23,372 nucleotides of DNA, from IMG/VR virus record IMGVR_UViG_3300032331_000324, positions 1-23,372 of that record. One strand, written 5' to 3'. Of this stretch, positions 1-23,372 are shown one piece after another. Every line of letters begins with the position of its first letter. Position 1 is the stretch's first letter. Source of the stretch: a virus. Below the pieces are notes generated by a model. That model was not told the DNA's origin, did no database searches, and saw nothing but the letters and a program-made list of their open reading frames with translations. A program made the translations under genes and the position numbers.

Positions 1-276
1 CATCATTGCAATACCATCGGGTATGTTTGTTGCTTCTTGTAGGTCTGCCAGTTCAAGCATACGAGCAAGTGAACCTGGTGCATAAGAATTTAATGCACGA
101 AGATGTTCAGCAATATCATCGGTTTGAGCGAACACAGAAGTGTAAAAGGAATCTAAGAAAGAATGATATTGTGGGAAATTTGGTCCCTCAATGTTCCAAT
201 GGTATCCATGTGCCTTCAGGTATAAAGCAAAGTTTGTACCTAGAATTGTTTTGAGTTGAGAGATAAGAGTTTCCAT
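1..276 (-). CDS. dps: Dps-like ferritin (DNA protection during starvation), 3' part outside window
   Basis: Ninety-two N-terminal residues are visible and the frame is open at position 1. Dps proteins are dodecameric mini-ferritins that oxidise and store Fe(II) with peroxide; many also bind DNA. The helix A/B signature is plain: LKAHGYHWNIEGPNF at residues 20-34, then QYHSFLDSFY and QTDDIAEHLRAL. All five ferroxidase ligands known from E. coli Dps (H51, H63, D67, D78, E82) match here as H26, H38, D42, D53 and E57 with identical spacing (12, 4, 11, 4). The start is chosen from the TAATG overlap with the gp16 stop, which implies translational coupling. The N-terminal tail before helix A is short, without the lysine-rich DNA-binding extension of E. 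coli Dps, so iron or peroxide handling is easier to support than DNA binding. In T4 the next gene would be the large terminase gp17, so this is an insertion in the packaging operon. Family call very likely; role in infection unknown. Confidence 0.92.
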   Translation of the reverse strand, partial: METLISQLKTILGTNFALYLKAHGYHWNIEGPNFPQYHSFLDSFYTSVFAQTDDIAEHLRALNSYAPGSLARMLELADLQEATNIPDGIAMM

Positions 277-680
277 TACATTTCCTGTTTTTGAGTTTTA
301 AGCAGTTTTACTAATTCTGCGGTATTACCAACAAACACAGCTTTATCTATGTTTAGATTGTTGGATTCAGATTTGGGTGCCAAATCTTTTTTACGTTTTT
401 GTATTTCCAGTAAGTCTTTATTTAAGTCACCTAGATTTTTCATCAGGGTGGCTAAGACTTCATATGCTCTTGGATGTTGACCATCACGGGCAACGAGCAT
501 TAATTCATTCATGGCATGACTGCCTTGTGTTACCAGTTCACGAATGTTGTTTCGTGCAAAATCAGCATCAGCATTGATTGGATCAGAAGCTTCTATAATA
601 ACTGGTAGAGGTGTTGGTTTTTCTTCTCTGATGGGTTCAACATCAAATATATCAGAGAGATTCGCGTTTAATTTTTTCAT
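276..680 (-). CDS. gp16: Small terminase subunit, T4 gp16-like
   Basis: 134 residues, somewhat shorter than T4 gp16 (about 164). Small terminases form rings that recognise genomic DNA and regulate the large terminase motor during packaging. Support comes from position directly after gp15 and from the layout: an acidic and proline-containing N-terminus (residues 1-40), a helical core with AYEVLATLMKNLGDLNKDLL around residues 73-92, and a lysine-rich segment after it (QKRKKDLAPK), resembling the central coiled-coil core of T4-type small terminases. The ATG overlaps the gp15 TGA as ATGA, and the TAA overlaps the Dps start as TAATG, so gp15, gp16 and Dps look translationally coupled. The sequence is less distinctive than gp13-15, so the call leans partly on synteny. 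Confidence 0.85.
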   Translation of the reverse strand: MKKLNANLSDIFDVEPIREEKPTPLPVIIEASDPINADADFARNNIRELVTQGSHAMNELMLVARDGQHPRAYEVLATLMKNLGDLNKDLLEIQKRKKDLAPKSESNNLNIDKAVFVGNTAELVKLLKTQKQEM

Positions 681-1678
681 GATAAAGTATTTGGATACTC
701 CTTTATTGTATCTATAAATCCGAATTCATCACCCAATGAAGCAGTTCCAGGATCAGTTTGTGTTTTTATCTGTACAACATTTAGAGAATTGATATCTGTC
801 ACAACAACATTGTATGCGGCACCAGTATAATCGCCAGTAAGTTTGTCACCCACTTTGATAATCTTATTGGCACCAGTTACTATTAATATTCCACTTGAGG
901 TATTGCTGAAGAAGTCTACAGTGGCAAATAAATCAGAGTTATTTGCACGAAGAGTCTCGCCTTGTGCAAAGACACCATTACCATTAGCATAGTCAACATA
1001 AACCTTTTGTATATCTTTGGTAGTAAGATCAATAAATGTATTAGTATTGGCAGTTTTAATATACTTACCAGATTTAACTGGTGGCCATATGTAACCTTTG
1101 GCAGTAAATGTCAAGTCCCATAGAATTAATCGCGTGGAACCTTCATTTAATGCGCCCTCATACTCTACAGTTGATGCTACTGAATCTAATATAATAGGAA
1201 CATTATATTTTTGATCCATCTCAGGAATGAAGTCTACGGTAACATTAAAGTCTGGTGTAAAAAATGGTAAAATTTGTTCGAGAATCTGTGTTCCATCTTC
1301 GGTATTACGAACATAGATCGATAGTGAGAATTGAAAGTTGTATGGTATAGGAACGAACTGCGTGTTTACTGAAGTGTCATCGTTCTGTGCAAAGTTACGA
1401 AGTGTTGAAACTTGTTTACGATTAATATCATATTCCAGACTGTCAAGGTTGAACGACATACGTGGAACAACAGTAGCAATTGACTTGATCAAATTAGGAT
1501 CAGAAGTGATTGCTGTTAGAAATCTTTCTTTCGGTGAAAAAGACAATGGCACTTTCCATTTTTCTTTTGGAACACCTGCTTGGGTGTATCGTACAATCTC
1601 AATATCATTGAAGAGTGTACCAAATACAACTACCATCTTGCGAATGGTGCGATGATAGAACTGAGCATTACCTAACAT
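677..1678 (-). CDS. gp15: Tail sheath stabiliser / tail completion protein, T4 gp15-like
   Basis: 333 residues against 272 in T4. gp15 forms the hexameric terminator ring at the head-proximal end of the contractile tail and binds gp14 in the neck. The N-terminus FYHRTIRKMVVVFGTLFNDI (residues 7-26) matches the family pattern (T4: FYNSSFRRYATLMGDLFSNI). A central block with YELSIF/ILEQILPFF-type sequence is present as FSLSIYVRN (residues 116-124) and ILEQILPFFTPDFNVTV, followed by the family 'LTF.. G..(Y/W)PPV' segment (LTFTAKGYIWPPV). The extra length is C-terminal (after about residue 210), a beta-rich tail not in T4. The start overlaps the gp14 stop as TAATG. Confidence 0.93.
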   Translation of the reverse strand: MLGNAQFYHRTIRKMVVVFGTLFNDIEIVRYTQAGVPKEKWKVPLSFSPKERFLTAITSDPNLIKSIATVVPRMSFNLDSLEYDINRKQVSTLRNFAQNDDTSVNTQFVPIPYNFQFSLSIYVRNTEDGTQILEQILPFFTPDFNVTVDFIPEMDQKYNVPIILDSVASTVEYEGALNEGSTRLILWDLTFTAKGYIWPPVKSGKYIKTANTNTFIDLTTKDIQKVYVDYANGNGVFAQGETLRANNSDLFATVDFFSNTSSGILIVTGANKIIKVGDKLTGDYTGAAYNVVVTDINSLNVVQIKTQTDPGTASLGDEFGFIDTIKEYPNTLS

Positions 1679-2571
1679 TACGGTTCCCCAAACGGATTGT
1701 GTTCCGTAAAGTCGATGATGCCATCAGATGATGCTTCGATACGAGCATTGTCAAAAATGTCCTCAAATGCATTGTTCATAGTAGCAGCATCAGAAATAAC
1801 ATTAATTGTTCTACTTGTGCTGGTACTTGTATTACCTTTTAATAAACCTGTAGTAAAATCACCTTGAACACGATATACTTCTACATACTGTCCTGGCATA
1901 TAATCATGAACAAGTGCTTGTGCATTTGCTGTCGCTAAACTACTTCCTTGATATACAATCTCATCATTTAAATAACTACCTGTGCCGCCAGAAGAAAAGA
2001 ACAGTCTTGTTTTCGGATAGTAATCTACGATCTGTTCATCAATTAACTTTACACCAGTATCAATAATCTCATTAGAAAATACATACTGCTTCATCTTCAG
2101 AGCATACACATATACATTACCACCTCGACCACGACCTAATGTATAGAACATCGTCTGTTGATCTTCATGTTCAACAAAAGTAATCTCAAAAAAGTTATTA
2201 AGTAATGGTACAAATATTAAATCACCTTCACGTGGACGAGTGTATCCATTTACTGTATAACGGAATCGTAATCGTGACACCAACATCGTAACTTCATCAC
2301 GAATCTCAAGACCAAATTTGGAAATAAAATCTTGCTCACCATCCATACCTGAAACATTTTCCAGATACATTTCAATTGGATGAGCAGAACGGTATTCTTT
2401 AAGAGAGTCTTCACCAAATAGATAGTCTACTTGGTCGCGTGTGGTACGTGGCATGTAATAAACATCCATGCCGTAAATTTTCATTGCCTCAATAACCAAG
2501 TCCTCAACGAGCAGTTGCTCGGAGGTTATCTGGTTCGCAGGAAAGTTATTGAAGTAGAAGTTGGTAGGAAT
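1678..2571 (-). CDS. gp14: Neck protein, T4 gp14-like, apparently starting at ATT
   Basis: gp14 assembles with gp13 on the portal to close the filled head and form the neck. Family features are clear: EDLVIEAMKIYGMDVYYMPR near the N-terminus, FGEDSL, FISKFGLEIRDEVTMLVS, the REGDLIFVPL motif and FEITFVE. The first ordinary start codon is TTG at 2499, but homologous sequence continues upstream in frame (MPTNFYFNNFPANQITSEQL), matching the N-terminus of T4-like gp14 proteins such as those of cyanophages. The frame upstream closes at the gp13 TAG (2583-2581), and between that TAG and the homology there is no ATG, GTG or TTG. ATT at 2571 is therefore proposed, with an AGG 8 bases upstream. This gives 297 residues (T4: 256). 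Alternatives are a TTG start (273 residues, losing conserved sequence), readthrough of the gp13 TAG, or a sequencing error. Confidence 0.9.
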   Translation of the reverse strand: MPTNFYFNNFPANQITSEQLLVEDLVIEAMKIYGMDVYYMPRTTRDQVDYLFGEDSLKEYRSAHPIEMYLENVSGMDGEQDFISKFGLEIRDEVTMLVSRLRFRYTVNGYTRPREGDLIFVPLLNNFFEITFVEHEDQQTMFYTLGRGRGGNVYVYALKMKQYVFSNEIIDTGVKLIDEQIVDYYPKTRLFFSSGGTGSYLNDEIVYQGSSLATANAQALVHDYMPGQYVEVYRVQGDFTTGLLKGNTSTSTSRTINVISDAATMNNAFEDIFDNARIEASSDGIIDFTEHNPFGEP

Positions 2572-2580
2572 TTTATTTAC

Positions 2581-3534
2581 CTATCCTGTCAGAATTTCAG
2601 ATGGCAACGAACCCATCATGTACATTTCTTCTTCCATCTTTTCAATCTCTTGTATTGCTTCATCATAAATTTGTTGACCATTTAAGGTGACACCACCTGG
2701 CATTTGTATACCCGCAAACTTTTTAAGATTAGAACCCCACTGACGTTTAATCAATGCGGTGGCATATTTCTTTAGGAACCTATCATTCCACACATCAGTA
2801 ACACCTTCAAGTGTAGCGGTTGCATTTGTATAAGTCTGTGCGGGATTACCCTCTAACTCTAAAGACGTAGGACTTGAAATTTTTCTTACTTGCTTTTGTT
2901 CAGTGCCGATTGTAATAAAATCAAAATCAACAAGTTCTTGATCAAACTTTGTACCTGTACCAATAACTGTATTAGAACCTGGAGCACATGATAGAGTTCC
3001 TGTTAGTGTAATTGTTTCGGGTTCTAATGCACGATAGCATTCGATGATAACAAAGTTACCTGGTTGAACATCGCGTGTCCAATCGATGTCTAAAAATACT
3101 TTGTTCTGATGACGGTTGAATCTGAACTGTGGAGTACCAGAGAATAATAGATTCAATGTACGAAGGTGTTGCATTGTAATTTCATATGACACATATGATA
3201 CCGATGTAAAGTCATAAAGATCATGCAGACGTAATTGATAACGCAAGTCAAACATATTGATTGATGCATTAGATAAATCAAATGGCATAACACCAATAAC
3301 AAATTGCACAGCATCAGGACAGTAAATCCACTGCCGATTAATATCTTCAGCAGTGATAGCATGTTTCATAAACAATTTTTCCGTGCCATCGTAATGATAA
3401 TCACGCCAGAAAGAAAGTGCCTCATCAATACGGTCATCTACCTGATCATCATCGACGTTGATTTCGATGACAGGAAAACCTAACTTGCGTAAGCAATAGG
3501 TTTTGAATTGTGATTTGGTTGATATTTTTGCCAT
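2581..3534 (-). CDS. gp13: Neck / head-completion protein, T4 gp13-like
   Basis: 317 residues, close to T4 gp13 (309). With gp14 it stabilises the packaged head and forms the tail-docking platform. Diagnostic stretches are the N-terminal FKTYCLRKLGFPVIEINVDD (residues 10-29), typical of T4-like gp13, followed by DRIDEALSFWRDYHYDGTEK, and the C-terminal WGSNLKKFAGIQMPGGVTLN with GQQIYDEAIQEIEKMEEEM. A beta-rich insert containing LTGTLSCAPGSNTVIGTGTK and an ATLEGVTDVWND segment lies between. It ends with the only TAG among the 20 stop codons seen in this window, in the same frame as gp14. No good Shine-Dalgarno precedes the ATG; instead an AT-rich leader (ATAAATAAGCAATC) runs directly into it. 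Confidence 0.94.
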   Translation of the reverse strand: MAKISTKSQFKTYCLRKLGFPVIEINVDDDQVDDRIDEALSFWRDYHYDGTEKLFMKHAITAEDINRQWIYCPDAVQFVIGVMPFDLSNASINMFDLRYQLRLHDLYDFTSVSYVSYEITMQHLRTLNLLFSGTPQFRFNRHQNKVFLDIDWTRDVQPGNFVIIECYRALEPETITLTGTLSCAPGSNTVIGTGTKFDQELVDFDFITIGTEQKQVRKISSPTSLELEGNPAQTYTNATATLEGVTDVWNDRFLKKYATALIKRQWGSNLKKFAGIQMPGGVTLNGQQIYDEAIQEIEKMEEEMYMMGSLPSEILTG

Positions 3535-3555: not shown

Positions 3556-3885
3556 TTAATAAAGTTCTGTACCAAATGCCGAAAACGACACAGTGGAAGT
3601 ATTAGCATTAACGGACAATTGTGAGGATGCATTTAACGTAATACCTAAACTCAACGAAATTGAATCGTTACCCGGCACAGATACCCGCCATGCAAGATAG
3701 TTTGCGTTTGCTGTAACGGCACCATTTAAATTTGCGGCAATACTAAACGCAGCAGAGTTGGCATCCAGATTAGAAATATTGATTGACGAAATAACAGCAG
3801 AGTTACCAGCAGGAACTCCGTATAGTCTTGTCAATGTATTTGCTGCTGGATTTTGTTGTCCTAAGATTGTATAATTTCTTGGCAT
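3556..3885 (-). CDS. Small phage structural protein of unknown function, 109 residues
   Basis: A compact beta-rich protein (MPRNYTILGQQNPAANTLTR...) with alternating hydrophobic, Asn, Ser and Thr residues and no membrane segment, Cys or catalytic signature. The sequence YGVPAGNSAVISSINISNLD around residues 22-41 resembles small beta-sandwich virion proteins in T4-like phages of aquatic bacteria, where 'vpagksavissi' patterns recur; that is a family-level impression, not a match I can verify. The start has an AGGA (ATAGGAAAATAAA) ahead of ATG. It lies between a MAHFA protein and gp13, so an accessory tail or neck decoration role is plausible. Gene real with high probability; function not known. 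Confidence 0.7.
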   Translation of the reverse strand: MPRNYTILGQQNPAANTLTRLYGVPAGNSAVISSINISNLDANSAAFSIAANLNGAVTANANYLAWRVSVPGNDSISLSLGITLNASSQLSVNANTSTVSFSAFGTELY

Positions 3886-3909: not shown

Positions 3910-4281
3910 TTATTGAAAGTCATGTTCGTCCCACGACAAGGTTGATTCATTCCAAATATAATTCTTATCTTCTGATGTTGGCATAGGCGTAGGTGGTTCC
4001 CAACCGCAAATATCCTCGTTCAATGTCCATGAAGGAAATGGTTTAGGTGGAATAAATGCATCACGGGAACTATCGTATGTAAAACCAACAGCGGCATAAT
4101 TTTTACGAAACTTTTTATTATAAGAAGTTTGTTTCCATGTTTCATGACCTGTTATTTTTTGTAAAAACTGTACGCCAATTTCTTCTCTTTCTTCTCCTTG
4201 TGGAGTCATGGTATCAACATTATTAACAACTAATACTCCTATTACAATATTATCAATACCAATTTTTGCAAAATGTGCCAT
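3910..4281 (-). CDS. MAHFA-family phage protein, copy 1, fibre-associated, function unknown
   Basis: 123 residues starting at MAHFAKIGIDN. The start is chosen because the Shine-Dalgarno AAAGGA lies just upstream and because the paralogue at 22156-22536 starts with the same MAHFA. An ATG-less extension to 4347 is rejected. The two copies align over their full length with a shared pattern: G/EREE.GV.F.Q, then WKQTSYN, YA..G..Y....DAF.PPKPF.SWTLN, then W..P..MP and Y.WNE...W. Small proteins with this aromatic pattern are familiar beside tail fibres in marine T4-like phages, but no biochemical role is known to me. It directly follows a glycine-rich fibre gene, as copy 2 also does, suggesting a partner role such as fibre chaperone, cap or adhesin. 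No catalytic motif is seen. Confidence 0.82.
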   Translation of the reverse strand: MAHFAKIGIDNIVIGVLVVNNVDTMTPQGEEREEIGVQFLQKITGHETWKQTSYNKKFRKNYAAVGFTYDSSRDAFIPPKPFPSWTLNEDICGWEPPTPMPTSEDKNYIWNESTLSWDEHDFQ

Positions 4282-4297
4282 TATTTTTTTCCTTTCA

Positions 4298-5668
4298 TCA
4301 TGATGTAAACGATCCTGAACCAGTGAAAGTGTGTACGGTATAACCACCTGCTGAAGTTATAGTTCCACCAAATGCTCGTTGATTTCCAAGATAACGAACA
4401 ATTACGATTCCAGAACCTCCAGCAAAATTTGATGCCCAATTTGTATATGGTCCTTGTCCACCAGAACCACCACCACCGCCGCCAGTATTCGTAGCACCAG
4501 GAGTTGGAGGATTTGAGTTTGTACTCCAACTACCATTACCGCCACCACCTGCCCCACCAGGAGCAGCCGCACCACCTGGCCAAGTACCACCGCCACCTCC
4601 GCCAGCATAATACGTTGGTGTTCCAGTTATCGATGACAGAAAACCTATACCACCAGTACCACCCGTACTTGCATTTGGTGCTGCTTGTCCTACTGCACCT
4701 GCACCACCACCGCCACCGCCAGCATGACTATCAGTTCCGTTACCACCCGCATAACCTTGACCAGGAGTTCCAAGTGCTCCAATATTCCACGGGGAAGTTG
4801 AGCCACTACCACCAGCACCAGAACCACCAGTCGCTGGCAAGGTGTATGCAAAACTTCCACCACGACCACCACCAATGGCAGTAAGACTGAAAGCGGTGGA
4901 GTTATCACCATTAGCACCAACGTTTGGATTAGGATTGCTACCACCACTACCACCACCACCAACTCCTATTGGATAATTTGTGCCAGAAGATAAACTTAAA
5001 CCTGAACCAGAAAGCACTCCTCCTGCACCGCCTCCACCACCATGCCAGTTTGATCCAGCACCACCTCCCGCAACAATTAAATAATCAATATTATAATTGT
5101 CTCCAAGAATATTTTGCCATCCACCTGCTGGTAAATAACCTTCAAATCTACTTAAAGTAGTATTGAATCTTAGTGAACCGTTTGCTGCAAATGCTGGTCG
5201 TTGTGCAGTTGTGCCTTGAGGTAACACAAATAAACCAGTTGATGTAGTATTAGCATTGTATACGCTAGTAACTCCACCAGAACTCTGTACAGTGAAACGT
5301 TGATTTGTAAGTCTGTTTGCTGTGAATCCGCTAGTTAAAAAGAAATCTTCAAAGGCATTTGGTTCTGCTAACTTTGCATTTGTAATTGAACCTGTTACAA
5401 TATTATTTGAGTTGACAGAACTATCTACCAACTTATCTCCTGTAATAGCATTTGGTGCTATCAGATTACCTGTAATTGTTCCTGCGACAATGTTATTACC
5501 ACGAATAGCATTGACTGTAATATTGTTTCCAGATATAGCACCAAGAGCAATAAGATTACCCGTAATAGAACCGACAGTAAGATTATTTGAACTGATTGCT
5601 CCGGTACCAATCTTGTTACTGGTAACTACGCCATCTATAAGTAAGTTTGAACGGACTCTTTGTATCAT
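4298..5668 (-). CDS. Tail-fibre protein: decapeptide-repeat N-terminus plus one glycine-rich module
   Basis: 456 residues. Residues 20-102 are perfect 10-residue repeats (GAISSNNLTV, GSITGNLIAL, GAISGNNITV...), probably a beta-helical or fibrous shaft. EPNAFEDFF (102-110) is followed by NRLTNQRFTV, a linker with YNANTTSTGLFVLPQG, and LRFNTTLSRFEGYLPAGGWQ. Residues about 193-425 form a glycine-rich module opening with YLIVAGGGAG, containing GTPGQG (300-305) and TNTGGGGGGSG, and closing with GGSGIVIV. Such modules are known in phage fibres; Salmonella phage S16 gp38 uses a polyglycine-II fold at the fibre tip for receptor binding, so host recognition is a reasonable inference. The C-terminus (residues 432-456, ending YTVHTFTGSGSFTS) looks like the opening strand of another module cut short. 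The start follows the previous TAA directly. Confidence 0.82.
   Translation of the reverse strand: MIQRVRSNLLIDGVVTSNKIGTGAISSNNLTVGSITGNLIALGAISGNNITVNAIRGNNIVAGTITGNLIAPNAITGDKLVDSSVNSNNIVTGSITNAKLAEPNAFEDFFLTSGFTANRLTNQRFTVQSSGGVTSVYNANTTSTGLFVLPQGTTAQRPAFAANGSLRFNTTLSRFEGYLPAGGWQNILGDNYNIDYLIVAGGGAGSNWHGGGGGAGGVLSGSGLSLSSGTNYPIGVGGGGSGGSNPNPNVGANGDNSTAFSLTAIGGGRGGSFAYTLPATGGSGAGGSGSTSPWNIGALGTPGQGYAGGNGTDSHAGGGGGGAGAVGQAAPNASTGGTGGIGFLSSITGTPTYYAGGGGGGTWPGGAAAPGGAGGGGNGSWSTNSNPPTPGATNTGGGGGGSGGQGPYTNWASNFAGGSGIVIVRYLGNQRAFGGTITSAGGYTVHTFTGSGSFTS
5363..5611 (-). repeat. Decapeptide (30-bp) repeats in the 456-residue fibre
   Basis: About eight consecutive 10-residue units with consensus roughly (A/G)-(A/S)-I-(T/S)-G-N-(N/L)-I-x-x. 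The same unit type builds the 76-residue proteins at 5669-5899 and 9200-9430 and appears briefly at the N-terminus of the 146-residue protein (ITGNRVANNSITYDNL). Regular Ile spacing suggests stacked beta-strands. Confidence 0.8.
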
Positions 5669-5899
5669 TTACATACCGCCGAATAAAAGAATATCATCAA
5701 AGATATCTGGTGGTGAACTAATCTGAACTCCGGTAATAGCACCGTTTGCAATTTGATTACCTGTGATAGCATAATTAGGAATCAAGTTGCCACTGATCTG
5801 TCCTGCAACAATATTGTTTGCACGAATAGAATTATCTGCAATCTTGTTTCCTGTGATTGCAGAGTTTGCTAAACGGTTATTACCTACTCTTATAGTCAT
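5669..5899 (-). CDS. Decapeptide-repeat protein, 76 residues, probable fibre segment
   Basis: Almost entirely decapeptide repeats (RLANSAITGN, KIADNSIRAN, NIVAGQISGN, LIPNYAITGN, QIANGAITGV), then an acidic aromatic end, PPDIFDDILLFGGM. The repeats match the N-terminus of the 456-residue fibre that follows directly (TAA then ATG), and the C-terminal 'D/E-x-F-D/E-D-x-x-L' matches EPNAFEDYFL of the other 76-residue protein. It could be a separately translated shaft or collar subunit, or a detached fibre N-terminus. The start is the first ATG after the 1092-residue gene and is preceded by the ATAAATAAGCAATC leader also found before gp13, with no good Shine-Dalgarno. Confidence 0.75.
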   Translation of the reverse strand: MTIRVGNNRLANSAITGNKIADNSIRANNIVAGQISGNLIPNYAITGNQIANGAITGVQISSPPDIFDDILLFGGM

Positions 5900-5921: not shown

Positions 5922-8900
5922 TTATGTCCATGTTAGGATCACAATTCCAGAACCACCCGCACCTGCTTGTCCAGTGGTATTGTTGTTTCTTCTTGCTCCA
6001 CCACCACCACCGCCTGTATTTGTAGTACCAGCAACAGCATCACTATCTCCTGGACCACCATTACCGCCACCACCATTACCACCAGGTCCTATACCTGAAG
6101 TAGCACTACCACCACCGCCACCAGCATAAAATGTTGGTGTTCCAGAATATGATGATGATAAACCTACCCCACCTGTTCCACCAGCACTCGGAGTTCCATT
6201 ACCACCAACAGCACCAGCACCGCCGCCGCCGCCAGTAGCAACGTTAGGAGATGAGAGATTTCCACCAGCATTTCCTTGTCCTGGAGTTCCTGTACCCGCT
6301 GGACCAGGACCGTTACCTGCACCGCCGCCGGAGCCACCATTACCAACACTAGAACCAGTACCTCCAAAACCGCCACCTATAGCAGTAAATGATGAGAATG
6401 ATGAATTTGCACCGTTTGATCCAATACCAGTATAAGGTGGTCCAGGAGTGCCCACACCAGCAGCACCACCTGCGCCAACTGTAACTGTGTATGCTTGTCC
6501 CGGTGTTACTGGATGACTTGTTCCTGTTAAAAGTCCACCTGCACCGCCACCGCCACCGCCACTACTGGTACCTGCTCCACCTCCCGCAACAACAAGATAA
6601 TTAACTGTAGCAGATTGTGCAGTGAATGTACCTGATGCATAGAATGTTGCTATTTTTGGTTGTGTTGCTGAGTGTTTGAGTATGAGTATGCCTGAACCAC
6701 CAGCACCACCAATACTTGTTCCTGCACCACCACCGCCGCCAGTTCCAAGTGCACCCGCACCACCAGTAGGTGTACCAGGATTTACGGCAGTACCACCACC
6801 ACCGCCAAGACCACCAGCAGTTGTTCCACCAGTGCCAGAAGCACCACCACCGCCAGCAAGATACAATAAAGTTCCTGTGAGTGTAGTTGATAGTCCAGCA
6901 CCACCTGAACCACTAACAACTGGCGAATTACCAGTACCACCCACAGCACCAGCACCACCACCGCCACCATTAAAGTTACCTACTCCTGGTGTGCTTATTG
7001 CACCACCACCTTGATTACCTTGACCAGGTGTTCCTAAACCTCCAGCATATGGACCACCACCACTTGATGCTCCTGCACCACCGCCAGAACCACCAACACC
7101 ACCACCGATGTTTCCCCCACTAGAACCACCACCACCTCCAAATGTTGATAGTGAAGAGAATATAGAATTTGAACCATTTGAAGCAACTCCAGCAGGTGCT
7201 CCTGTTCCACCTGAACCTATGATAATAGGATATGTTTGTCCTGGTGCTACTGGATAACCTGTGCCCGATATGTAACCACCAGCACCACCACCTCCCGCTA
7301 CACTTCCGCCACCGCCACCAGCAACGAGAACATAATCAACCGCAGTAATTCCTGGTGGTGCTGTCCATTGCCCTGATGCTGTGTAAAGATATGTTGTGAC
7401 TGAAGGTTGTGTCGTGGGGATCGAAACGATGACAATACCTGAACCACCTGCACCAACTGCACCACCAGAACCAGCAGCACCACCACCACCACCGCCAGTA
7501 TTTGTATTTGCCGAACCAGCAGCAACAGTACGTGTTGGTCCAGGAGTTTCTATGTATGAACCACCATTACCACCACCATATGGTGTTCCTAACCAAGGTG
7601 AACCTGAACCATATGAAGCATAACCTCCACCACCATATCCCATTGAACGATCAACTTGTGGTATAAGTCCACCACCTCCACCACCGCCAGCATATGCTAC
7701 ATTAGCACCAGACATTGATGAGAAGATTCCTATACCGCCATTGCCGCTTCCTGCACTAATTGATCCTACGCCAGCACCACCCGCACCTCCACCACCCGCA
7801 CCTCTTGCTAAAGATGGATTTGCTGTAGAAGAACCTGTGCCGCCAGCAAAACCTTGTCCTGGAGTTCCTGCACCTCCAGAATTACCTGCTGGTGTGCTTG
7901 ACCATCCACCTGCACCACCACCAGAACCACCAGATCGACCCGAAGTTGCTGCTGCTCCCGAAGGTGCGCCATCTCCACCGCCGCCACCACCAGTAGCAAC
8001 TAATGTGCCGAAAACTGAATTTGAACCATTGGAACCTGCTGTAATTCCGGGAGAATAAGGGGAACCTGGACCGCCAGCACCACCAGAACCAATCGCAACA
8101 GCAATTGCGGAATTTGAACCAACTGGAAATCCTGTTCCTAATAAGACACCACCAGCACCACCACCTCCACCTATATTACCGCCGCCGCCGCCACCGCCAG
8201 CAACGACAAGATAATCTACTTGTGAAACACCTGTGGGTACAATAAATTGACCTGTATTACCAAAAACAAAAATACCATTTGTTGATGTGGATTGTGTCCA
8301 CTTGAGAACGATGACACCTGAACCACCAGCACCACTAATTCCTGCTGCGCCGCTTGGACCAGTTACTCCGGAACCCCCACCGCCTGAACCAGTTGAAAAA
8401 ACACCGTTACCAGCAGCAGTTGCAGTAGTACCTGAAGCATTACCTCCAATTAAAAATCCTCCAATACCGCCAATATTTCCACCACTACTACCTCCTCCAC
8501 CACCAGCAGCGTATGCGGTGTTTGATCCTGAAATGGTGGAAAATATTCCTATACCACCATTACCACCTATAGCAGAATTAGCATTTCCACCAATTGCTCC
8601 AGCACCACCACCACCACCGCCTCTAGCATTATATGCGCCAGTTAATTGACCAGTGCCACCACTAAAACCTTGTCCGGGTGTTCCTGTACCAGCAGAACCT
8701 CCATAACAAGCACCTCCACCGGAACCACCAGGACTACCATTTTGTCCCGGATTATTTTCAGTACCACCACCACCGCCACCTATTGACCAATTAACTAATG
8801 ATGTTCCTGTACTTGTGTTGAATATACCCGAATTTGAGCCAGTAACACCATTCGCAGGAGAACCTGTTGGTCCTCCATTTCCAGCACCAGCACCACCTGA

Positions 8901-9200
8901 ACCAACAGCAAGTGTATATGATGTACCCGGAGTTACTGTTAATCCTGTTCCTGTTTGATAACCACCCGCACCGCCACCGCCACCATAACGATCACCACCG
9001 CCGCCGCCACCGCCAACAACTAACCAATCAACTGATGTAACTCCAGAAGGAGGTGTCCATGTTTGTGAACCTTGAAATACTTGAATTGAAGTATAAGATG
9101 TTGGTCCAGCAGGTGCGGGTGTCGAACCACCAGTGCCAAAACCAGGTACAGTGAATCGCTGTGTTGTAAATCTATTGACTGTGAATCTTTTTAGACTCAT
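5922..9200 (-). CDS. Large glycine-rich tail-fibre protein with four tandem modules
   Basis: 1092 residues, dominated by Gly, Ser, Ala, Thr and Asn. The N-terminus SLKRFTVNRFTTQRFTVPGF carries an RFTV repeat shared with the 456-residue fibre. Four glycine-rich modules follow at about residues 35-302, 308-594, 601-842 and 850-1092. Each opens with an aromatic strand plus VDYLVVAGGGGG-type sequence, has an internal GTPGQG (173-178, 445-450, 723-728, 971-976), a 'YAGGGGGG' segment, and closes with GGSGIVIL. Runs of Gly separated this way suit polyglycine-II packing as in phage S16 gp38, so a receptor-binding fibre tip is a reasonable inference. The start overlaps the previous stop as TAATG, so translation is probably coupled to the 76-residue repeat protein. 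Long proline-rich frames on the opposite strand are composition shadows. Confidence 0.85.
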   Translation of the reverse strand: MSLKRFTVNRFTTQRFTVPGFGTGGSTPAPAGPTSYTSIQVFQGSQTWTPPSGVTSVDWLVVGGGGGGGDRYGGGGGAGGYQTGTGLTVTPGTSYTLAVGSGGAGAGNGGPTGSPANGVTGSNSGIFNTSTGTSLVNWSIGGGGGGTENNPGQNGSPGGSGGGACYGGSAGTGTPGQGFSGGTGQLTGAYNARGGGGGGAGAIGGNANSAIGGNGGIGIFSTISGSNTAYAAGGGGGSSGGNIGGIGGFLIGGNASGTTATAAGNGVFSTGSGGGGSGVTGPSGAAGISGAGGSGVIVLKWTQSTSTNGIFVFGNTGQFIVPTGVSQVDYLVVAGGGGGGGNIGGGGGAGGVLLGTGFPVGSNSAIAVAIGSGGAGGPGSPYSPGITAGSNGSNSVFGTLVATGGGGGGDGAPSGAAATSGRSGGSGGGAGGWSSTPAGNSGGAGTPGQGFAGGTGSSTANPSLARGAGGGGAGGAGVGSISAGSGNGGIGIFSSMSGANVAYAGGGGGGGLIPQVDRSMGYGGGGYASYGSGSPWLGTPYGGGNGGSYIETPGPTRTVAAGSANTNTGGGGGGAAGSGGAVGAGGSGIVIVSIPTTQPSVTTYLYTASGQWTAPPGITAVDYVLVAGGGGGSVAGGGGAGGYISGTGYPVAPGQTYPIIIGSGGTGAPAGVASNGSNSIFSSLSTFGGGGGSSGGNIGGGVGGSGGGAGASSGGGPYAGGLGTPGQGNQGGGAISTPGVGNFNGGGGGAGAVGGTGNSPVVSGSGGAGLSTTLTGTLLYLAGGGGASGTGGTTAGGLGGGGGTAVNPGTPTGGAGALGTGGGGGAGTSIGGAGGSGILILKHSATQPKIATFYASGTFTAQSATVNYLVVAGGGAGTSSGGGGGGAGGLLTGTSHPVTPGQAYTVTVGAGGAAGVGTPGPPYTGIGSNGANSSFSSFTAIGGGFGGTGSSVGNGGSGGGAGNGPGPAGTGTPGQGNAGGNLSSPNVATGGGGGAGAVGGNGTPSAGGTGGVGLSSSYSGTPTFYAGGGGGSATSGIGPGGNGGGGNGGPGDSDAVAGTTNTGGGGGGARRNNNTTGQAGAGGSGIVILTWT

Positions 9201-9430
9201 TAGAGACTACCCAAAAGAAAATAATCTTCAAACGCATTAGGTTCTGCTAATTTTGCATTAGATATTGCGCCATTTGCAATGTTGTTTCCAGAAATAGCAG
9301 TAGTACCAATCAGATTACCTGTGATAGCACCAGATGCAATTTGATTTGCACTAATAGCACCGACTGCAACCTTGTCGCCAGTTACAGCACCTGTTGCTAT
9401 CCTACCTGATTCGACTTTTTGTTCTGGCAT
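9200..9430 (-). CDS. Decapeptide-repeat protein, 76 residues, detached fibre N-terminus
   Basis: Decapeptide repeats (GRIATGAVTGDK, VAVGAISANQ, IASGAITGNL, IGTTAISGNN, IANGAISNAK) then LAEPNAFEDYFLLGSL. NAKLAEPNAFEDFFL occurs almost unchanged at residues 97-111 of the 456-residue fibre, where it continues straight into RFTV and glycine-rich sequence. Here those parts are encoded by the next gene, which overlaps the stop as TAATG. The pair therefore looks like a split version of the fused fibre. The start also overlaps the previous stop as TAATG. It probably forms part of the fibre shaft or its attachment; not testable from sequence. Confidence 0.78.
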   Translation of the reverse strand: MPEQKVESGRIATGAVTGDKVAVGAISANQIASGAITGNLIGTTAISGNNIANGAISNAKLAEPNAFEDYFLLGSL

Positions 9431-21730: not shown

Positions 21731-22066
21731 TTACCTCGTAACGGATGGTAATACAACTGCTGTTCCTTCGACTACACGGGTCACAGAATTGTCTACAGAA
21801 TTACGAATAGTTAAATCATAAACATACCGACCAGGTGAAAGAAGAGCAGTATTTGCTGCGGTCATTGAAAGAGTAATCTGACCATTGGCATTACCAGTAA
21901 TAATTGCCGACATGGTGTTTGCAGATGAGGAATAATAAGACTTGCGTAGTTGAGAAGATGCAGAATAGGTTGCTAAATTTACTGCATCACCTTGATTGTC
22001 ATTGACAGAAACAGTTGAAATTAAATTCGCACCTTGTTCTATTGTAAGTTCTACATAAGCAGCCAA
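21731..22066 (-). CDS. Small Ig-like phage protein, TTG start (111 residues)
   Basis: A beta-sandwich-like protein: LTIEQGANLISTVSVNDNQG at the N-terminus, a central 'A..QLRKSYYSSSANTMSAIITG' and a C-terminal SPGRYVYDLTIRNSVDNSVT then VVEGTAVV. This 'dxG...L.gy...gqlRks..s.....f...i......G.i.lsl......l..G.YvYDi.i......rv.eG...v.p..t' pattern recurs in small proteins of marine T4-like phages and resembles the N-terminal Ig-like domain of baseplate proteins (BppU_N type). The start is TTG, supported by a strong AAAGGAG seven bases upstream and by the lack of an ATG there. It is the first gene after the UUCG terminator and an ACTAAATAG box, so it likely opens the fibre operon. Baseplate or fibre-attachment role inferred. 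Confidence 0.78.
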   Translation of the reverse strand: MAAYVELTIEQGANLISTVSVNDNQGDAVNLATYSASSQLRKSYYSSSANTMSAIITGNANGQITLSMTAANTALLSPGRYVYDLTIRNSVDNSVTRVVEGTAVVLPSVTR

Positions 22067-22583: not shown

Positions 22584-23372
22584 TTATGTCCATTTAAGGA
22601 TGACAATTCCTGAACCACCATCACCACCACCAGTAGCCCAAACTGCACCAGGTCCGCTTGGGAATACTGCAAGAGCACCACCTCCACCACCACCGCCTGT
22701 TGCTGGTAAACCAGGAAGCCCGTTTAGTCCACCAATTGCTGCCTCTGGAGTGATTGAAGGATTAGAACTTCCACCATTACCACCACCACCTTTTTGTGCT
22801 GGATTTGTAGTACCACCACCTAATGCTATAGTGTAATTGCCAGTTCTAAAATCATTAGCACCAGCACCACCGCCAGCATAATATACTGTTGAACCACTTA
22901 TTGTTGATGCTAATGCTATGCCTCCATTACCACCTTGTCCGTTAGGTGCTGGAGCATTACCACCTGCGCCACCTGCGCCACCGCCACCGCCAGAATTATT
23001 TTGACCACCACCAGGTCCAGTTTCATAATAACCACCACCACCCTGATTACCTTGACCCGGTGTTCCTGGAGCACCAGCAGAAAGATTACCAAATGGACCT
23101 TGATTAGCACTACCACCACCAGAACCACCTCTCCATCCTAAATTAAGCGGTGCTGGACTGCCACCACCACCACCACCACCACCAAGTGCAGTTATAGTTG
23201 CAAATACTGAGTTGGTTCCATTACTACCATGACCTGTGGGAGACACTCCTGCTTTTCCTCCTGCACCCACAATAATTGAAATTGTTTGTGCGGGTGTTAC
23301 GCCATATCCTGTGCCTGTTAAGAATCCACCAGCACCACCACCGCCACCTCCAATAGTGTTTGGACCGTATAC
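22584..23372 (-). CDS. Glycine-rich tail-fibre protein, 3' part (5' end outside window)
   Basis: The frame is open to the window edge, giving about 262 visible residues. The first visible residues (TIGGGGGGAGGFLTGTGYGV followed by TPAQTISIIVGAGG) are the start of a glycine-rich module of the same type as in the 1092- and 456-residue fibres; an internal GTG at 23270 is not the start. The module contains GTPGQGNQGGG, a 'YYAGGGAG' segment and closes with GGSGIVILKWT then TAA, almost identical to the ends of the first and last modules of the 1092-residue fibre. It is followed by a MAHFA protein, as is the 456-residue fibre. Likely receptor-binding fibre; number of upstream modules unknown. Confidence 0.83.
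   Translation of the reverse strand, partial: VYGPNTIGGGGGGAGGFLTGTGYGVTPAQTISIIVGAGGKAGVSPTGHGSNGTNSVFATITALGGGGGGGGSPAPLNLGWRGGSGGGSANQGPFGNLSAGAPGTPGQGNQGGGGYYETGPGGGQNNSGGGGGAGGAGGNAPAPNGQGGNGGIALASTISGSTVYYAGGGAGANDFRTGNYTIALGGGTTNPAQKGGGGNGGSSNPSITPEAAIGGLNGLPGLPATGGGGGGGALAVFPSGPGAVWATGGGDGGSGIVILKWT

Follow-up and report, generated by a model that had tools for sequence, protein, structure and literature searches.

MAHFA proteins, small proteins encoded behind glycine-rich tail fibres of marine phages, are probably dedicated intermolecular chaperones of the fibre encoded just before them and would fold its host-binding tip, a reading to which a probability of about 0.75 is given. Linkage, cognate co-variation and fold matches are what the analysis shows; that MAHFA binds the fibre, acts as a chaperone and is released, and what its C-terminal hairpins do, is inferred. 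A dedicated assembly factor had been one of the functions offered in the preliminary description, and the evidence has favoured it: MAHFA is found within three genes behind a glycine-rich fibre in 190 of 195 readable cases, co-varies with the upstream fibre head and, in its modelled N-terminal part, resembles the N-terminus of Pam3 gp25. The reading provides a testable function for an abundant, function-less family in phages of SAR11, Synechococcus, Roseobacter and OM43. In these phages, for which few host determinants are known, the gene directly upstream of MAHFA would be the likely receptor-binding protein, and MAHFA a co-expression partner to make such fibres soluble.

Two fibre–MAHFA pairs in a T4-like marine myophage

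The window, that is, the whole analysed stretch of 23,372 nucleotides (IMG/VR record IMGVR_UViG_3300032331_000324), comes from a T4-like marine myophage, and both pairs lie in its host-recognition region (Table 1). Genes for the terminase small subunit, tail sheath stabiliser, head closure and head-tail adaptor proteins occupy the minus strand at 276-3534, with virion and fibre genes above them. This layout, with fibre genes next to neck genes, matches the 'host recognition cluster' that adjoins the neck genes in pelagimyophages (PMC7029224). A phage nucleotide search with the window returned no match.

Table 1. Coordinates of the two fibre–MAHFA pairs and of neighbouring features in the window
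Feature	Position	Strand	Evidence or remark
Head-tail adaptor	2581..3534	-	phrog_211; neck end of fibre region
MAHFA protein 1, 123 aa, proposed fibre chaperone	3910..4281	-	phrog_7759 E 4e-46; AF2 pLDDT 95.4
MAHFA 1 residues 59-123, three short W/Y-rich beta-hairpins	3913..4107	-	Model secondary structure; invariant F76, S84, W110, W117
MAHFA 1 residues 1-58, beta-sandwich like Pam3 gp25 fibre-binding domain	4108..4281	-	7ypx_a match
Glycine-rich tail fibre 1, 456 aa, 25% Gly	4298..5668	-	Pfam Gly_rich_2 E 3.2e-23; phrog_2295 and tail-fibre PHROGs
Fibre 1 C-terminal 327 aa (modelled; TNF-like sandwich and glycine-rich lattice)	4298..5281	-	AF2 pLDDT 87.8
76-aa ITGN-repeat protein between 1092-aa fibre and fibre 1	5669..5899	-	
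1092-aa fibre, four Gly_rich_2 stretches	5922..9200	-	Comparison; no MAHFA directly behind
MAHFA protein 2, 126 aa	22156..22536	-	phrog_7759 E 3e-44; AGGAGAG upstream
Glycine-rich tail fibre 2, C-terminal 262 aa, 36% Gly	22584..23372	-	Gly_rich_2 E 6.7e-9; cut by window end

As had been described, the order fibre then MAHFA occurs twice, and the two small proteins are alike over their full length, aligning end to end with 56 of 122 residues identical (46%, E 2e-42). Fibre 1, which consists of N-terminal ITGNxI-type repeats and a C-terminal TNF-like and glycine-rich tip, is separated by 16 bases from MAHFA 1 (ATG at 4281, stop at 3910). An alternative MAHFA 1 frame of 145 aa with a GTG start is unlikely, because a GAAAGGAAAA stretch precedes the ATG. 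RNA hairpins between fibre and MAHFA genes were not better than in shuffled sequences. The absence of a MAHFA gene directly behind the 1092-aa fibre was also seen again, the next frame being that of a 76-aa ITGN-repeat protein.

Several other small proteins accompany the fibres. A second free-standing 76-aa ITGN-repeat protein is encoded at 9200-9430; each of the two lies beside a glycine-rich fibre and resembles the N-terminal repeats of fibre 1, and they are perhaps adaptors or fibre remnants. Directly behind MAHFA 2, a 111-aa protein (21731-22066) belongs to phrog_3304 (L-shaped tail fibre protein assembly, E 4e-21) and is a possible second assembly factor. A close relative (L084:8411-15890) encodes two glycine-rich fibres of ~1090 aa, and MAHFA directly follows neither of them. 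In front of each stands the gene of an 'ILGQ-NP-AN' protein of 109-112 aa that is related to the one at window 3556-3885. These long fibres may use another partner than MAHFA.

The MAHFA family

Both MAHFA proteins belong to phrog_7759, annotated "unknown function", covering profile positions 1-121 and 1-119 of 125. This is a family with no described function, in keeping with the earlier suggestion that MAHFA may define an undescribed fibre-partner family. The profile was matched by all 60 aligned relatives, and a pattern scan of IMG/VR alone gave at least ~600 matches. Family members share four invariant residues (Table 1) and a well-conserved C-terminal half, and contain ~6-7% Gly with no Gly runs. 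No named MAHFA family was found in a literature search. Sequence and profile searches of Pfam, NCBIfam and PDB yielded nothing usable; none of 60 members matched Tfa/Caudo_TAP (PF02413), DUF4376 or any Pfam family at E <= 1. Comparison with V22 gp27 by hhalign gave a probability of 0.3% and hence no similarity, and none to Pam3 gp25 was detectable at the sequence level. When a natural fibre–MAHFA fusion was sought, the only long frame found was one of 235 aa in locus L025, which was rejected as an out-of-frame upstream extension overlapping the end of the fibre gene.

Linkage of MAHFA to glycine-rich fibres

Linkage was surveyed in 160 IMG/VR loci with MAHFA relatives, which were picked by similarity to the two window proteins and include some near-duplicates; upstream genes were read for 204 copies including the window's two. 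Nine of the 204 copies run off the contig before any fibre. Among the 195 copies with readable upstream context, 190 lie one to three genes downstream of a glycine-rich fibre, which is the adjacent gene for 151 copies and is reached within three genes for 39 more. The genes in between are a 2OG-Fe(II) oxygenase, a homing-type endonuclease, another MAHFA or another frame, mostly one of the first three. The other five copies (L066, L067, L069, L079, L082) follow a SPRY/DUF7483 fibre, so the partner can change and is not in every case glycine-rich; other fibres are served by a few percent of the copies. MAHFA genes lying mostly away from fibre genes would have spoken against the partnership, and no unlinked copy was found among those with readable context in these loci.

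In the same loci, read with a simple gene caller, the gene immediately upstream was glycine-rich for 125 of 184 MAHFA genes versus 72 of 1353 (~5%) other non-glycine genes. The pairing implied by the term two-gene cassette is therefore real, but the cassette is not strictly of two genes, since others can intervene. Annotated phages, among them T4-like cyanophages, pelagiphages, roseophages and OM43 phages, showed a glycine-rich fibre upstream of MAHFA in 17 of 17 regions, directly so in 12. One oxygenase intervenes in DSL-LC04, and in four cyanophages fibre and MAHFA are ~2.8 kb apart, the genes between them being an inverted carbamoyltransferase, an oxygenase and a 'ferrochelatase'. HTVC008M, HTVC023P, S-RSM4 and S-SM1 are phages with such a pair. 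On GTDB contigs the fibre was within two genes in 15 of 17 cases (14 directly upstream, one behind a single gene). The linkage is common to podo-like and T4-like phages.

Some loci display particular arrangements. Endonuclease VII/HNH genes have inserted exactly between fibre and MAHFA (L074:4099-4614, L046:2263-2775), a position that would suit homing endonucleases. Tandem MAHFA genes stand behind a single fibre at L061:7565-8423 and also in L085, L086, L012 and L040, the first of the two in L061 being more divergent. In Pelagibacter phage Greip (L165, MT375525), MAHFA is preceded by a gene annotated 'DNA stabilization protein'. The part of this protein that can be seen, the C-terminal 139 aa, resembles a glycine-rich fibre head (35% Gly), and the gene is likely misannotated or fused.

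Co-variation of MAHFA with the upstream fibre head

Many loci contain tandem arrays of the form fibre-MAHFA-fibre-MAHFA, in which a MAHFA gene is flanked by fibres on both sides. For 32 such copies, MAHFA sequence distance correlated with that of the upstream fibre head at r=0.66 and with that of the downstream head at 0.36 (bootstrap 95% CI of the difference 0.15-0.47). In the 24 copies with both fibres at full length, the values were 0.57 for the upstream head, 0.34 for the upstream N-terminus and 0.26 for the downstream N-terminus. DNA distance alone is no explanation, because the downstream N-terminus is equally near. Swapping MAHFA among the pairs of one contig lowered r from 0.64 to 0.41, and none of 1000 shuffles reached 0.64. 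The higher correlation with the upstream head, together with the swap test, indicates that MAHFA evolves with the head of the preceding fibre; each glycine-rich fibre of this kind in multi-fibre genomes would have its own cognate MAHFA. The N-terminal and C-terminal halves of MAHFA did not differ in tracking the fibre (r 0.56 vs 0.55).

Co-inheritance of neighbours alone produces correlation, as upstream and downstream fibre heads reach r=0.56 with each other, so MAHFA might merely hitch-hike in a hypervariable fibre region with no physical link to the fibre. Such an origin is very improbable, given that the correlation is specific to the upstream head at equal gene distance, that the linkage is kept across podo-like and T4-like phages and that the MAHFA fold matches the chaperone of a fibre of the same kind.

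Structural models and known fibre chaperones

The AlphaFold2 model of MAHFA 1 comprises two strands, a helix (33-44), a third strand and three beta-hairpins bearing the invariant Trp, Phe and Ser. No helix follows residue 44, and the model is thus devoid of a C-terminal helical trimerisation domain. Among 145 PDB chains compared, only 7ypx_a was matched at Z >= 2 (Z 5.6, rmsd 1.8 A, 53 aa, model aligned range 1-78 against residues 3-56), a moderate match of fold only, which was seen only in the VIA-align second look. A Foldseek search of PDB gave no significant match, only weak ones to EGF domains, and matches in BFVD were unnamed relatives followed by weakly matching proteins named tail fibre assembly/DUF4376 (E 0.3-1.4), to which no weight is given.

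The head model of fibre 1 matched Pam3 gp24 (7ypx_A) with Z 13.5, rmsd 2.5 A and 28% identity over 164 aa; chain Qa of the Bxb1 tail tip was an equally good match. The 7YPX structure is the complex of the Pam3 fibre gp24, which has a TNF-like and glycine-rich head, with its chaperone gp25 of 162 aa (PMC9608196), and its chains were assigned to gp24 and gp25 by their lengths of 250 and 162. That fibre and MAHFA correspond role for role to the two partners in a single solved complex, in two independent searches, constitutes the strongest structural argument, and as far as the models go this coincidence outweighs the Z of 5.6 taken alone. In a 3:3 complex, residues 1-55 of gp25 bind the TNF-like/glycine-rich junction of gp24, whose solubility is greatly improved by gp25, and gp25 is absent from virions (PMC9608196).

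In both systems, a small protein with an N-terminal beta-sandwich is encoded directly behind a fibre with a TNF-like and glycine-rich head. They differ in that gp25 continues into a helical trimerisation domain (residues 64-162), whereas MAHFA has three W-rich beta-hairpins instead. Dedicated assembly factors of the Tfa/T4 gp38 type (Mu Tfa, PF02413) are likewise encoded directly behind the fibre, but MAHFA lacks both a match to the family HMM and the Tfa-type C-terminal region. Alteromonas phage V22 gp27 and A5 gp9 are also marine-phage intermolecular chaperones encoded behind the fibre; unlike MAHFA, which has no hhalign similarity, they resemble intramolecular chaperone domains and have helical bodies (PMC7289586, PMC10579305). 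MAHFA is kept outside the Tfa and gp25 families because it has neither the trimerisation domain nor a Tfa/DUF4376 profile match, and phrog_7759 is most likely a new sort of intermolecular fibre chaperone, gp25-like in its working.

Proposed action of MAHFA

MAHFA would be synthesised as the next product after the fibre. With its N-terminal beta-sandwich it would grip the side of the C-terminal fibre head at the TNF-like/glycine-rich junction. This grip, possibly extended by the C-terminal hairpins, would keep the floppy glycine loops from aggregating while the head folds and registers in the trimer. MAHFA would then probably be released, as Pam3 gp25 is. Trimerisation itself is possibly supplied by the N-terminal part of the fibre, a task that the gp24 N-terminus is able to perform (PMC9608196). 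With one cognate MAHFA for each fibre, fibre and chaperone would therefore move as a cassette. Points that count against the chaperone reading are the moderate gp25 match (Z 5.6, 53 residues) together with the Foldseek result, the lack of the gp25 trimerisation domain, the lack of sequence matches to Tfa, DUF4376, any Pfam family or V22 gp27, and the exceptions to the pairing, namely the 1092-aa fibre and the five copies behind a SPRY/DUF7483 fibre.

MAHFA might also remain part of the mature fibre, forming a small protein at its tip or collar in the manner of Tfa of Mu or Ur-lambda, and take part in receptor binding. A lasting complex would account just as well for the cognate co-variation with the fibre head, a helical trimerisation/release module is missing from MAHFA, the W/Y-rich hairpins could form a binding surface, and mature phages do contain some Tfa-type chaperones (PMC9608196). 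This is nevertheless unlikely: the nearest fold match, gp25, covers the receptor-binding loops and does not occur in virions (PMC9608196), and a receptor-contacting tip is expected to be hypervariable, whereas the C-terminal half of MAHFA is well conserved. The chaperone reading is accordingly preferred.

An adhesin, also considered in the preliminary description, is not supported, as it is the fibre that contains the adhesin-like glycine-rich lattice, and MAHFA has little glycine. The comparison with the gene 37/38 arrangement of T-even phages holds for T4 gp38, Tfa and Pam3 gp25, the chaperones, but not for gp38 of T2/S16. The latter is likewise encoded by a small gene behind the distal fibre gene, in a system that includes a glycine-rich receptor-binding fold; gp38 of S16/T2 is itself the glycine-rich adhesin, while with MAHFA that domain resides in the fibre. 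An adhesin of the S16 gp38 type is unlikely for this reason.

2OG-Fe(II) oxygenases in the cassette

The commonest insertion in the fibre–MAHFA cassette is a 2OG-Fe(II) oxygenase gene (PF13759, PF13640), for example at L018:7387-7998, L009:2488-3060, L040:6969-7544 and L089:4693-5352. Directly behind a glycine-rich fibre stand 20 of 74 distinct 2OG genes compared with ~5% of other genes, a proportion favoured by the selection of loci for MAHFA. These positions hint at putative fibre hydroxylation. A tentative and rather doubtful extension is a cassette of fibre, oxygenase and chaperone, in which many marine-phage 2OG enzymes would hydroxylate the head held by MAHFA, itself a minimal chaperone with no trimerisation domain of its own. 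Phage 2OG genes have been treated as auxiliary metabolic genes (PMC9602691, PMC10436341). If the extension is true, many of those so filed in marine phages would be fibre-modifying enzymes, and head hydroxylation would tune receptor binding or stability; cassette oxygenases can be flagged as possible fibre-modifying enzymes.

It could further be supposed that MAHFA belongs to a fibre-modification set with these oxygenases, for instance as an adaptor presenting the fibre, and is not mainly a chaperone. The oxygenases found between fibre and MAHFA in many loci, their frequency directly behind glycine-rich fibres and the 2OG clusters beside MAHFA in cyanophages and pelagiphages would agree with this. 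It is improbable, however, since some three quarters of the cassettes lack an intervening oxygenase, and none is present there in the window. Moreover, fibres with and without an oxygenase did not differ in Pro, Asn and Lys contents, which gives no substrate signature, and the differences in their Gly and Asp contents probably follow fibre architecture.
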